Assembly (NCBI RefSeq): GCF_008729015.1
Contig: NZ_RKSM01000003.1
Span: forward strand, 186,001 to 250,000
Length of the DNA stretch: 64,000 nucleotides
Reading direction: 5' to 3'
Source of the DNA: Haloarcula sp. CBA1129
Lineage (GTDB): Archaea > Halobacteriota > Halobacteria > Halobacteriales > Haloarculaceae
Shown: positions 11,105 to 48,962 of the stretch, in pieces
Numbering within the stretch: the stretch's first letter is position 1
Layout: the number at the start of each line of letters is the position of its first letter
Notes under the pieces: model-generated
Told to the model about the DNA's origin: nothing
Databases searched by the model: none
Seen by the model: the letters and a program-made list of their open reading frames with translations, nothing else
Translations under genes and position numbers: made by a program

Positions 11105-11950
11105 TCACTCGATTTCGGCAGCGACACGCGCCAGACAGCCCTCACCCGGTTCGAAGTACGAGTAGTGGTCGGCGACGAGGTCAGAGACGTTCACGTCTTG
11201 GTAGCCGTCGGGAAGTGTCCCCACGTCACGAGTTCCAGCGTGGCCGACGGCGTGTGTCCGGTCCGACGCTCGGTAAATCCACGAGAGGACCCTGTCGTTG
11301 TGGCTGTAGAAATTCGACACCGGCGCGTCAACGGTTCCGATAGCGTCGCCGTAACGGCCACCCTGCACCACGCTATTGTATGGGATAGCACCGCCGAGCA
11401 ACGACACTGAAGCGAGGGCGTCGGTCGCCCCTCGCTCGGCGAGTGCCCGGAGCGTCTCGCCGGTCACCCGCGCGCCGAGCGAATGAGCGAGCAAATGGAT
11501 GGGCCGTCCGTCGGTTTCAGCCCACTCGACCAGCCACTGGGCGAGAGGAGTACTGTTCGCCTCGGCGTTGGCCTTCGCCTGCTCCCAGTCGACGTTAGAA
11601 TCCCAGCTGTATGCGACGACCGGTGCGGACGTGGTCCCTTCGAGCGCTACCTGTGCGGTATAGGCATTGTCGAGGGCCGTCTCGGCGTCGGTACTGAATC
11701 CGTGGACGAACAGGAACACGGCCGACGCGTCGTCGAACGACCACGTACCATCAGTCTCGAAGGCCGGCTCATCCGCTGGGTCGAGGAGCCCGCGCGTAGT
11801 GACGACTGGCTGTGAGTCCGGCGCACTGTAGTCGCCGGAATCGCCTCGCAACGACCAGTACACGTAGGCACCACCGCCGCCGATCAGACCGAGCCCACTC
11901 CCGAGACCGAGAAGCAGCCGTCGTCTTGTCACGCCGTTTTGACTGTCCAT
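11105..11950 (-). CDS. Tat-exported alpha/beta hydrolase (DUF900-like)
   Basis: A 281-residue protein. The N-terminus TRRRLLLGLGSG followed by a hydrophobic stretch is a twin-arginine signal. The hydrolase core begins with VFLFVHGFSTD (oxyanion loop) at about 78, has the nucleophile elbow LLAHSLGAR near 152-160, an acidic residue in NDRVLSW near 222 and a His late in the protein (DHYSYF, about 262). The AHSLG elbow and overall size fit the DUF900/lipase-like group. Without a lipobox it is probably released or anchored by the signal helix. Substrate unknown; an esterase or lipase is most likely. Confidence 0.78.
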   Translation of the reverse strand: MDSQNGVTRRRLLLGLGSGLGLIGGGGAYVYWSLRGDSGDYSAPDSQPVVTTRGLLDPADEPAFETDGTWSFDDASAVFLFVHGFSTDAETALDNAYTAQVALEGTTSAPVVAYSWDSNVDWEQAKANAEANSTPLAQWLVEWAETDGRPIHLLAHSLGARVTGETLRALAERGATDALASVSLLGGAIPYNSVVQGGRYGDAIGTVDAPVSNFYSHNDRVLSWIYRASDRTHAVGHAGTRDVGTLPDGYQDVNVSDLVADHYSYFEPGEGCLARVAAEIE

Positions 11951-12083
11951 TGCTGGTAGCTTGTGGGTAGGTCACAGGTGTACCGATAAGTCAGTTGAGA
12001 TTGTCGCGCTCGGAAACGAAATACAACCCAAAAGCTGTGTCACAGCCCACAGGCTCATGTCCCGGCGGGCAGTCATCGGAGCC

Positions 12084-12686
12084 ATGACAACTTGGGACGA
12101 GCGATACCGAACGGGCGCGTACCCACAGTGCCCGGACCCACATTCGGTGTTAGACCGATACCTGCCGACCTTCCCGGAGGGGCGGGCGCTGGACATCGCA
12201 ACCGGGACTGGGCGGAACGCGCTTCCGGTCGCAGCGGCCGGGTACCGCGTCGATGCGGTCGACCAGTCACGCGAGGGGCTTCGTATCGCTCGGGAGAACG
12301 CACACACAGCGGGCGTCGAAGACGATATCGAGTGGCTACAGGCGGACCTCGACTCGTTTACGTATCCGGCGTCCACGTACGACCTCATTACGATCAGCTT
12401 CTATCGTCCCGTCGACCGCCTCCCCGACATCATCGAAGCGCTGGCCGACGGCGGCTGTCTGTTCATCCAGCACCACCTCCGGACGAGCGACGACGTGGAC
12501 GGCGGCCCCTCCGGGGACCGGTATCGGTTCGCTTCGAACGAACTGCTCAGGGCCGGACTCGGGCTGACCGTGTTGCACTACGACGAGCGCACCACAACGA
12601 CGGGTGAGACAACCGCCGCCACCGCCCAACTGGTCGCCAGAAAGTCCCACGGAAGCAGACAGTCGTATCCGGATATCTCGGAGTAA
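12084..12686 (+). CDS. Class I SAM-dependent methyltransferase (TehB-like)
   Basis: A 200-residue methyltransferase beginning with WDERYRTG, a start signature of the TehB/thiopurine-type group. Motif I is ALDIATGTGRNALPVAAAGY, followed by DAVDQSREGL (acidic ribose contact) and YDLITISFYRPVDRLPDI, then GGCLFIQHHL. These resemble enzymes methylating tellurite, halides or small thiols, but the acceptor is not determinable. The ATG at 12084 was chosen because similarity starts there; an upstream ATG at 12057 would add nine residues. Confidence 0.8.
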   Translation: MTTWDERYRTGAYPQCPDPHSVLDRYLPTFPEGRALDIATGTGRNALPVAAAGYRVDAVDQSREGLRIARENAHTAGVEDDIEWLQADLDSFTYPASTYDLITISFYRPVDRLPDIIEALADGGCLFIQHHLRTSDDVDGGPSGDRYRFASNELLRAGLGLTVLHYDERTTTTGETTAATAQLVARKSHGSRQSYPDISE

Positions 12687-12817
12687 GATAGCAGATGGAG
12701 ACAAGAGTCAAACAACGCTCCACAGGCTATTGGTTTCAGGCAGTGTACCCTGAATAAACTGCACAGCAGATCTGCGGATTGACTGGAATATCAAACAGAG
12801 AAAAGACTAGGCGCTAC

Positions 12818-13198
12818 TCATTCTTGGATACTGAATTCAATCTCAGCCTCGTTTATCGTGACGATAATGTTTGACCCCATCTGGAGGTCGTATTCTTCGA
12901 TATTGAATGGATACTCCTGTTCACGCCCATCACCAAGGGAGATTGTGAGCGTATAGTCGCCAGTCTCGGAGATACCCGGATACACATTTTTTCTGCCGCT
13001 GGGAGTGACTGCTGTTTCGCCTTCAAACACGACTGAGTCCCCTGTCACGACTGATACCGCCACTGTGGCTTGTTCCGAAGTCTCATTATCGAGTACGACG
13101 AAAATGTCTTCTGCAACATCCGGGTCGGTCTCTGCGGCACAGCCAGCAAATGGAATCAGTAAGGGCAAGAACGACAGCAGTGATCGTCGCTTCATCAC
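12818..13198 (-). CDS. Small exported lipoprotein, unknown function
   Basis: A 126-residue protein. MMKRRSLLSFLPLLIPFAGC is a lipoprotein signal with the lipobox Cys at 20. The mature part is acidic, predicted all-beta, with a VFEGETAVTPSGRKNVYPGI stretch typical of Ig-like haloarchaeal lipoproteins. No family name can be given. It is transcribed away from the methyltransferase and its flanks are AT-rich. Start could also be the second Met (13195). Confidence 0.72.
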   Translation of the reverse strand: MMKRRSLLSFLPLLIPFAGCAAETDPDVAEDIFVVLDNETSEQATVAVSVVTGDSVVFEGETAVTPSGRKNVYPGISETGDYTLTISLGDGREQEYPFNIEEYDLQMGSNIIVTINEAEIEFSIQE

Positions 13199-47024: not shown

Positions 47025-47126
47025 CCCGAATGCAATGTTAACTGGCAACTACTTGGAAAGCAGACCGCATTTTCACTCGGTGGGAACGTGAGAGTTACTT
47101 TTCAAATAATGGGTAACAGAACAGGT

Positions 47127-48962
47127 ATGGGCACAGACTCGACGGGGAAGTTCGCCGAGTGGGATGAAGAACGGTACAGCACAAATGTCGAGCGGTTCGA
47201 CGAGCAGCACAAGCGCCTGTTCGGGCTGCTGAACGACCTCCACACGGCGATGAACGAGGGCCATTCCGAGGAAGAAGTTGGTGACATTCTCCGGGAACTC
47301 GAACGATACACGGAGTATCATTTCGGTGACGAAGAGGAGTTCATGCAGAACTGTGGCTACGCCATGGACTGCAGCGACTGTTTCTACAACCACCGTGAAA
47401 TGCACGAGGAGTTCGCTGGGAAAGTGCGAGAGCTTCGCGAGAAACACGAGAACGGAGAGTACGTCACGATGGAGGTCTTGACAGTTGCTCGGGATTGGCT
47501 CGATGCACATATCGCCGCTGGCGATGAGGACCAGAACTACGCTGACTACTTCGAGACGGAGGTCAGCGACGACTACGAGTACGAACCCGGCCAGCTCTAT
47601 CATGACCGAACGGCATCAGAAGACCCGGTCCCAGTTGACCGCCAGAGCGAAGACGCCGGCGTGCGTCTCGACAGCGATATCTACGACGGCGGCTCGCTTT
47701 CAGTCCCGGAGGGGTCAGTAGCGGCTTGGTTCGAAGACATCGTGTCGGAACACGGAGACCGGACCGCAGCGCTCGTCAGAGATAACGGCGAGTTCGTCGA
47801 ACGGAGTTTCGAGGAGATGGCCGAGCGGGCGAAAGCAGTCGCGGGCGGGCTCCTCTCGACGGAACTTCGCCCCGGGGACCGACTGGCCATCAGAGCACAG
47901 TCCCAGTACAAGTGGTCCGTGCTCGACTTGGCCTGTCATTTCGCCGGGCTTGTCCCGGTTGCACTCTACCCGTCTGCAAGCGACGACCGGGCAGCCCAGA
48001 TTATCGAGCGGACCGGCGCAGTCGGACTCGTGGCAGCCGGAGGCGTGGCCGAGGACCTCACGATGGCAGTCGAAACTGTCCTCGAGTTCGACGATCTACC
48101 GACTGCTGAGGCGAGAGTGCTTCCCGGCCTCCAGACTGACGGAGACGAGGTTGCGACAGTCGCGTTCGACGTGGCTTCCCCTGCAGAGAAGGCCGGCTGC
48201 GCGCTGACACACCGGAATCTGCTGGCAGCAGCAGCGAGCCTCCGCGAGGAACTTCCTGCCGGTCCCGGGGCGACGGGGACCTGTTCGCTCCCGCTGGCAC
48301 ACATCTACCAACGTGTCGCGACGTACTACCTCTGGGCGACGGGAAGCGCCGTCGCCTACCTCGGAGCCGAGGCGTTCATCGACCAGCTCGCGGCGGTAAA
48401 GCCGGACGTGCTTGTCGGTGTCCCGAAGATGTACCAGCAGCTCTACGGGACGATACAGGACCGTCTCGGCGACATGGGCTGGATGAAGCGGAAGGTCGGC
48501 GGTCGAGTTGCATCCTACGGGCAGGGAATCGTCGAAGGACGGGGAACGCCGCTGAAATACAGGGCCGCCAAGCGGCTCGTGTACAAGCCGCTCCGGAAAG
48601 AGGCGGGATTATCGAACCTCAGATACGCCCTCTCCGGGACCGGCCAGCTCGACGATCATCTGCTGTACTTCTTCCGAGGGCTGGGCGTTCCGATATGCGA
48701 GCTCTACGGCTCCGTCGGAACAACTGGTGTCGGCGCACTGAACCCGGCGGAGTCCTTCGTGGAGGGGTCAATCGGCGACCCGATGCCGGGCGTGGAAATC
48801 GCTGTCTCCGAAAGCAGGGAAATACTGGTCCGTGGCCCGACTGTCCTCGGTGGGTTCCTCGACGGTGACCAAAGTGGCGCACAAACGCTCCGGGACGACT
48901 GGTACCACACCGGCGAAGTCGGTGAGGTGGGGCCGGACGGCGAGCTGTCGCTCGCCGAGTGA
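47127..48962 (+). CDS. Hemerythrin domain fused to a degenerate AMP-binding (acyl-CoA synthetase-like) domain
   Basis: A 611-residue two-domain protein. Residues 1-145 are a complete bacteriohemerythrin: di-iron ligands His28, His65, Glu69, His89, His93, His128 and Asp133, with Cys76, Cys82 and Cys85 nearby. After a linker, residues about 195-611 follow the long-chain acyl-CoA synthetase pattern (PLAHIYQRVATYYLW, KPDVLVGVPKMYQQLY, ELYGSVGTTG). The ATP-binding loop YTSGTTG-PKG is replaced by AFDVASPAEKAGC (about 346-358), TGD is TGE, and the C-terminal subdomain with the catalytic Lys is absent. It is probably an oxygen-binding protein with an acyl- or CoA-binding, non-adenylating domain. A TATA-like element near 47099-47110 supports a leaderless start at 47127. 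Confidence 0.85.
   Translation: MGTDSTGKFAEWDEERYSTNVERFDEQHKRLFGLLNDLHTAMNEGHSEEEVGDILRELERYTEYHFGDEEEFMQNCGYAMDCSDCFYNHREMHEEFAGKVRELREKHENGEYVTMEVLTVARDWLDAHIAAGDEDQNYADYFETEVSDDYEYEPGQLYHDRTASEDPVPVDRQSEDAGVRLDSDIYDGGSLSVPEGSVAAWFEDIVSEHGDRTAALVRDNGEFVERSFEEMAERAKAVAGGLLSTELRPGDRLAIRAQSQYKWSVLDLACHFAGLVPVALYPSASDDRAAQIIERTGAVGLVAAGGVAEDLTMAVETVLEFDDLPTAEARVLPGLQTDGDEVATVAFDVASPAEKAGCALTHRNLLAAAASLREELPAGPGATGTCSLPLAHIYQRVATYYLWATGSAVAYLGAEAFIDQLAAVKPDVLVGVPKMYQQLYGTIQDRLGDMGWMKRKVGGRVASYGQGIVEGRGTPLKYRAAKRLVYKPLRKEAGLSNLRYALSGTGQLDDHLLYFFRGLGVPICELYGSVGTTGVGALNPAESFVEGSIGDPMPGVEIAVSESREILVRGPTVLGGFLDGDQSGAQTLRDDWYHTGEVGEVGPDGELSLAE

Follow-up and report, generated by a model that had tools for sequence, protein, structure and literature searches.

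A hemerythrin fused to an acyl-CoA synthetase domain that has lost its catalytic motifs, and its divergent PPOX-type partner gene, in Haloarculaceae

Gene Organization of the Locus

The fusion gene described here lies in a 64,000-nucleotide stretch of the genome of Haloarcula sp. CBA1129 (contig NZ_RKSM01000003.1, positions 186,001–250,000), referred to below as the window. Its product consists of a bacteriohemerythrin domain, a linker, and a domain related to acyl-CoA synthetases (ACSs), and the gene is divergent from one encoding a small PPOX/PNPOx-like protein (Table 1). The start codon is shared with the RefSeq orthologs HAH_RS18715 of Haloarcula hispanica and RR_RS03455 of H. marismortui, which are located on the megaplasmids pHH400 and pNG700, respectively, and are annotated simply as "bacteriohemerythrin." The intergenic region likely serves as a shared promoter region for the two genes. 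The Haloarcula sequences aligned there are too alike to establish a conserved regulatory palindrome.

Table 1. Features of the hemerythrin fusion locus, in window coordinates.
Feature	Coordinates	Strand	Basis or remarks
PPOX/PNPOx-like split-barrel protein, 144 aa	46590..47024	-	PF12900, AF2 model, Foldseek, co-occurrence
Intergenic region between divergent genes, 102 bases	47025..47126	.	Sequence; alignment in Haloarcula
Hemerythrin-pseudo-ACS fusion CDS	47127..48962	+	611 aa, ATG 47127, stop 48960-48962
Bacteriohemerythrin domain, residues 10-142	47154..47552	+	NF033749; PDB sequence match 4xpx, E 3e-13
Cys triad loop C76-x5-C82-x2-C85, between second and third helices	47352..47381	+	Alignment
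Variable low-confidence linker, about residues 151-198	47577..47720	+	pLDDT <50 at 157-177; alignment
Pseudo-ACS domain, residues 199-611	47721..48959	+	PF00501; large N-terminal domain only, stops at hinge
Degenerate A3 P-loop FDVASPAEKAG	48165..48197	+	Consensus YTSGTTGxPKG
Degenerate A5 motif CELYGSVGTTG	48696..48728	+	Free relatives EGYGATE
A7 motif WYHTGEVG	48900..48923	+	TGE in place of TGD

The Hemerythrin Domain

Profile searches assigned the N-terminus of the window protein to the bacteriohemerythrins (NF033749, residues 10–142) with 110.7 bits against a cut-off of 84, and to PF01814 (residues 20–133) with 46 bits against a cut-off of 25.3. The full set of seven di-iron ligands that had been predicted from the gene alone (H28, H65, E69, H89, H93, H128, and D133) is present with the spacing of the family. 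Among 19 aligned fusions the five His ligands and the Glu are invariant, but at position 133 Asp is found in 14 and is replaced by Asn in the other five, so that this position is less fixed than the original prediction implied. The N-terminus of the window protein belongs to the O2-binding type of di-iron hemerythrin and would be expected to bind iron and O2 itself; given the substitution of Asp133 by Asn, some of the fusions may not bind O2 reversibly. The five proteins with Asn at this bridging-ligand position (window codon 47523–47525) come from Halovenus, Salinibaculum, and strain SHR40; none of the 19 fusions deviates from Asp at position 135. The residues Cys76, Cys82, and Cys85 are likewise all retained in the 19 fusions, and also in eight stand-alone haloarchaeal relatives, and form a triad specific to this hemerythrin clade. 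One further Pfam match to the window protein, PF16450 (E 0.013), fell below its cut-off and was taken as noise.

The Synthetase Domain Keeps Its Fold and Has Lost Its Catalytic Motifs

The second domain was identified by PF00501 (AMP-binding) with 135.7 bits against a cut-off of 29.9 over residues 202–577. An AlphaFold2 model of the fusion protein (mean pLDDT 80.7) gave a fold match (VIA) to 8wev_B with Z 46.4 over 364 residues at an rmsd of 2.0, involving model residues 195–611; because the list of the fold search was filled by matches to the ACS domain, this result covers the ACS part of the fusion. The matched segment corresponds to about residues 1–396 of solved adenylating enzymes (3–388 in 8wev_B), which is the large domain alone, up to the hinge. 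Together, the profile and fold matches identify the large N-terminal domain fold of the ANL superfamily, as had been proposed for this part of the protein.

The motifs of the domain were compared between the 19 aligned fusions and 33 free haloarchaeal synthetases. The A3 P-loop, YTSGTTGFPKG in the nearest free synthetases, is FDVASPAEKAG in the window protein, and the A5 motif reads YGSVG instead of YGATE, with Leu for Gly at residue 526 and Gly for Glu at residue 531. The window protein accordingly lacks four features of a functional ACS, namely the A3 P-loop, the YGxTE of A5, the TGD of A7, and the C-terminal subdomain; the A4 motif is retained. The P-loop Lys, the A8 hinge, and the A10 Lys region are absent from all 19 fusions and kept in all 33 free synthetases. 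The fusions of Halovenus, Salinibaculum, and SHR40 are less decayed and mostly retain TGD and the TE of A5. These comparisons bear out the original prediction of a replaced ATP loop, a TGD-to-TGE change, and a missing C-terminal Lys subdomain, and they locate the intact motifs in the free homologs. From its motifs, the domain should be dead and unable to adenylate, in agreement with the suggestion that it does not activate a ligand.

The accompanying suggestion, that an acyl or CoA ligand is bound by the domain, is not supported. In solved adenylating enzymes, the first Gly of the GYG in A5 lines the substrate/adenylate pocket, and the C-terminal domain of ACSs takes part in the CoA half-reaction. 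This Gly is replaced by Leu, Ile, or Val in all 19 fusions, which is expected to narrow the pocket, so that ligand binding there cannot be assumed, and the C-terminal domain is gone.

Distribution and Origin of the Fusion

Whole-protein searches at E 1e-80 yielded matches in 29 of 391 genomes of the class. In 26 of these the match is the fusion, and every one belongs to the family of the window; the remaining three (G155, G158, and G305) carry a free synthetase. A broad haloarchaeal distribution was excluded by this confinement to one family among the 391 genomes. Within the family, a hemerythrin of the same clade occurs in 36 of 146 genomes, as a fusion in 35 and solely as stand-alone copies in G332. 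The named carriers comprise Haloarcula, Halorientalis, Halosimplex, Halomicrobium, Halovenus, Salinibaculum, and strain SHR40, and related fusions with the same truncation are found in at least seven genera of Haloarculaceae. Two irregular cases were seen. In Halomicroarcula sp. SYNS111 (L110:5007-5402), the hemerythrin has lost its first helix and continues in frame into the final ~30 residues of the pseudo-synthetase; the bulk of the latter domain is deleted, and the copy looks broken. The genome G294 carries two near-identical fusion copies near opposite ends of one contig (C1:3351873-3353666 and 67160-68611; L026 and L032), which differ in their frame disruptions.

The recurrence of the fusion in many genomes, at up to 94% identity, shows that it reflects neither chance nor an assembly error, and a sequencing or assembly artifact was excluded by its presence in the named genomes. 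A frameshift near 48960 that hides the end of a longer synthetase was also considered. A tblastn search of ~2 kb downstream with four C-terminal domains, applied to the window gene and to those named fusion loci that were long enough, found no C-terminal-domain remnant (best E 0.09, compared with 1e-27 to 1e-101 for positive controls). Since all fusions also share an identical end point, a frameshifted or truncated longer synthetase was rejected.

In the synthetase tree the fusions form one clade (support 100/99), with L029–L031, three intact free synthetases, as the nearest entries, and the fusion is of single origin. The closest free ACSs keep every motif, indicating that catalysis was lost within the fusion lineage. 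When an outgroup was included, the tree of the hemerythrins had too little resolution to show whether the fused or the stand-alone forms are older. Positions fixed in the fusions and differing from free ACSs include L365, L402, G431, R446, and G534.

The Divergent PPOX-Type Partner Gene

The product of the divergent gene scored 53.5 bits against PF12900, well above the cut-off of 27, and its AF2 model (pLDDT 83.4) matched the split barrel 2hq9 in Foldseek with E 2e-9. Foldseek matches of the model include flavin-, F420-, and heme-binding split barrels, and the cofactor of the protein may be FMN, FAD, F420, or heme.

This gene adjoins the fusion in 28 of the 35 fusion genomes of the family. At E 1e-25, a member of its subfamily was detected in 28 of the 142 genomes searched from the family and 21 of the 382 searched from the class. 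Each of these genomes also has the fusion, and the subfamily was found in none of the searched genomes of either set without one. The association with carriers of the hemerythrin clade gave p 9e-23 at the family level by Fisher's test, a value that is uncorrected for relatedness among genomes that are not independent, and co-occurrence by itself is no sign of contact between the proteins. The distance from fusion to partner was 78–205 bases in the 19 genomes measured, while the other neighbors change between genera, making simple inherited synteny a poor explanation of the pairing. Within the genome of Haloarcula sp. CBA1129, other PPOX proteins are at most 38% identical to the partner, as against 46–59% for the partners in other genera. 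The same search found no partner in seven fusion genomes: five of the genus Haloarcula, H. rara among them, Salinibaculum KK48, and one in which the contig is 4.7 kb. The linked gene, which like the Cys triad and the HemAT association described below did not figure in the original prediction, is the strongest lead.

Proposed Function

The features established for the locus are its two domains, the loss of catalytic motifs from one of them, selection on both, the single origin of the fusion, and a linked partner gene that was missing from every searched genome without the fusion. The reading that we favor, at a probability of roughly 0.4, is that the fusion and the PPOX-type protein form an O2- or redox-responsive two-gene module, in which a hemerythrin-pseudoenzyme with a non-catalytic binding or interaction domain works with a flavin or deazaflavin partner. 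The fusion product would be cytosolic. Binding of O2, another oxidant, or NO at the di-iron site, or oxidation of the site, would serve as the input and change the conformation of the protein, and the PPOX-type protein with FMN, FAD, or F420 would supply or sense electrons; reduction of met-hemerythrin is one way in which it could do so. The pseudo-synthetase domain would then relay this state through an interaction with another protein or a small molecule. Such a module may involve physical contact and electron transfer between the two proteins, a signaling or regulatory role for the pair, and a ligand for the pseudo-synthetase.

A more specific proposal, which we regard as rather doubtful, is that the hemerythrin drives a pseudo-synthetase that either senses a metabolite, be it acyl-adenylate, AMP, or a CoA species, or docks onto a metabolic enzyme, with a dedicated PPOX-type flavin or deazaflavin protein setting the redox state of the di-iron site. 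If true, it would couple oxygen state to lipid or nucleotide metabolism in haloarchaea.

Selection on the Synthetase Domain

Among the alternatives, the one that fares best is nevertheless unlikely. In it the hemerythrin is the working part, which binds, stores, or detoxifies O2 or NO, and the synthetase is a decaying passenger retained mainly for folding, solubility, or oligomerization. Estimates of dN/dS bear on this directly. Within Haloarcula the hemerythrin had a value of 0.034 and the pseudo-ACS one of 0.114, indicating purifying selection on both domains and excluding a pseudogene; a direct comparison in five genomes gave 0.108 for the pseudo-ACS and 0.074 for the N-domain of an intact Haloarcula ACS. 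The pseudo-ACS thus evolves somewhat faster than its intact counterpart and faster than the domain to which it is joined, and the long branches of H. rara and Halomicrobium katesii, together with the SYNS111 deletion, point in the same direction. A dN/dS near 0.11 still denotes strong purifying selection, however, and the full-length domain persists in at least seven genera with residues fixed specifically in the fusions, whereas the SYNS111 copy has also lost the first helix of its hemerythrin and looks broken.

Stand-Alone Relatives and Gene Neighborhoods

Stand-alone relatives of the fusion hemerythrin occur in Halohasta, Halomicrococcus, Salinibaculum, Halorientalis marina, and a few others. 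In seven of the eight intact cases examined (Salinibaculum, Halohasta, Halomicrococcus, Halorientalis marina, G085, G294, and G332), the gene directly precedes one for a Protoglobin-MCP transducer (HemAT). The pairs lie on the same strand (L105:4989-7052, L106:4980-7046, L108:4989-7003, and L109:4989-7056; also L114, L115, and L116), which suggests a two-sensor aerotaxis operon. HemAT is an aerotaxis transducer, and these neighbors tie the hemerythrin clade to O2 sensing.

The fusion itself could be an aerotaxis accessory that tunes O2 signaling to chemotaxis transducers as its HemAT-adjoining relatives may do, and in SHR40 the fusion and its PPOX-type neighbor do lie between two MCP transducer genes (L071:6146-7837 and 11328-13001). 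No transducer adjoins the fusion in the window or at most other fusion loci, however, and the HemAT-like gene of Haloarcula sp. CBA1129 is on another replicon; we consider this role unlikely. A different neighbor, a type III RuBisCO gene (TIGR03326), comes immediately after the fusion in Halovenus aranensis, H. salina, and one Salinibaculum locus, and one gene further on in S. litoreum (same-strand loci L100:5001-8157, L104:5001-8160, L096:5001-8176, and L111:5001-8830). An O2 scavenger or storage protein that shields oxygen-labile metabolism, such as this enzyme in Halovenus and Salinibaculum, would fit these loci; the link is limited to those two genera, with no RuBisCO gene beside the fusion elsewhere, the window included, and the idea is improbable for the fusion as a whole. 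Continued catalysis, with the C-terminal domain supplied in trans or a different reaction performed, is very improbable, since the nucleotide-site residues kept by the Halovenus, Salinibaculum, and SHR40 fusions (the TE of A5, TGD, and a GTxxHPRG-like loop) are set against the loss of the P-loop Lys, A8, and A10 and the bulky residue at the first Gly of GYG, both in all 19 fusions, and against the lack of a C-terminal domain nearby at the loci searched.

Relation to Known Systems

The best-known hemerythrin fusions have signaling domains as their outputs. The fusion described here has instead, as its conserved output, a metabolic enzyme whose chemistry was lost and on which selection was kept; it arose once, has been retained by seven or more genera, and in the majority of these is tied to a PPOX-type gene that was not found without it. 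It offers a tractable case of a pseudoenzyme derived from adenylating enzymes, and the two genes provide a concrete target for studies of O2 or redox sensing in haloarchaea. Both are present in Haloarcula hispanica and H. marismortui, in which knock-outs should be feasible.

Hemerythrins in Halobacteria were already noted in a 2008 survey (PMC2556348), and a hemerythrin plus AMP-binding architecture was listed for an archaeal protein, under "Methanococci" and with no function, by Alvarez-Carreno et al. (2016; PMC4919030). The original prediction that no function had been described stands in the mostly non-subscription literature searched, although the bare architecture was on record. The 2016 entry, compared here by its listed architecture alone, has the same two Pfam domains as the fusion and, unlike the present analysis, includes no motif analysis, partner gene, or function. 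In the same, mostly non-subscription literature we found nothing on the catalytic loss, on the partner gene, on the Cys triad, or on the link to HemAT.

The hemerythrin domain shares its family, ligands, and ligand spacing with bacteriohemerythrins (NF033749) such as McHr of Methylococcus capsulatus (4xpx) and DcrH-Hr of Desulfovibrio vulgaris (2avk), but the fusion differs from them in an extra loop with the invariant Cys triad, in the attached pseudo-ACS, and, in some members, in Asn for Asp133. The second domain has the large-domain fold and the A4 motif in common with FadD-type long-chain ACSs, Feruloyl-CoA synthetase (8wev), and the N-domain of FACL13 (3t5c), while it lacks the A3 Lys and the C-terminal A8/A10 domain of FadD-type and other ANL enzymes and is altered in A5 and A7. 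In MCP-Hr (DcrH) and Hr-GGDEF signaling fusions, the hemerythrin is likewise the sensor at the N- or C-terminal end of a multidomain protein; the output of the present fusion is, in contrast, a dead metabolic enzyme rather than any known signaling domain. The HemAT-linked stand-alone hemerythrins of Halohasta, Halomicrococcus, and Salinibaculum are 66–75% identical to the fusion hemerythrin and carry the same Cys triad, but they have no pseudo-ACS and adjoin HemAT instead of a PPOX-type gene.
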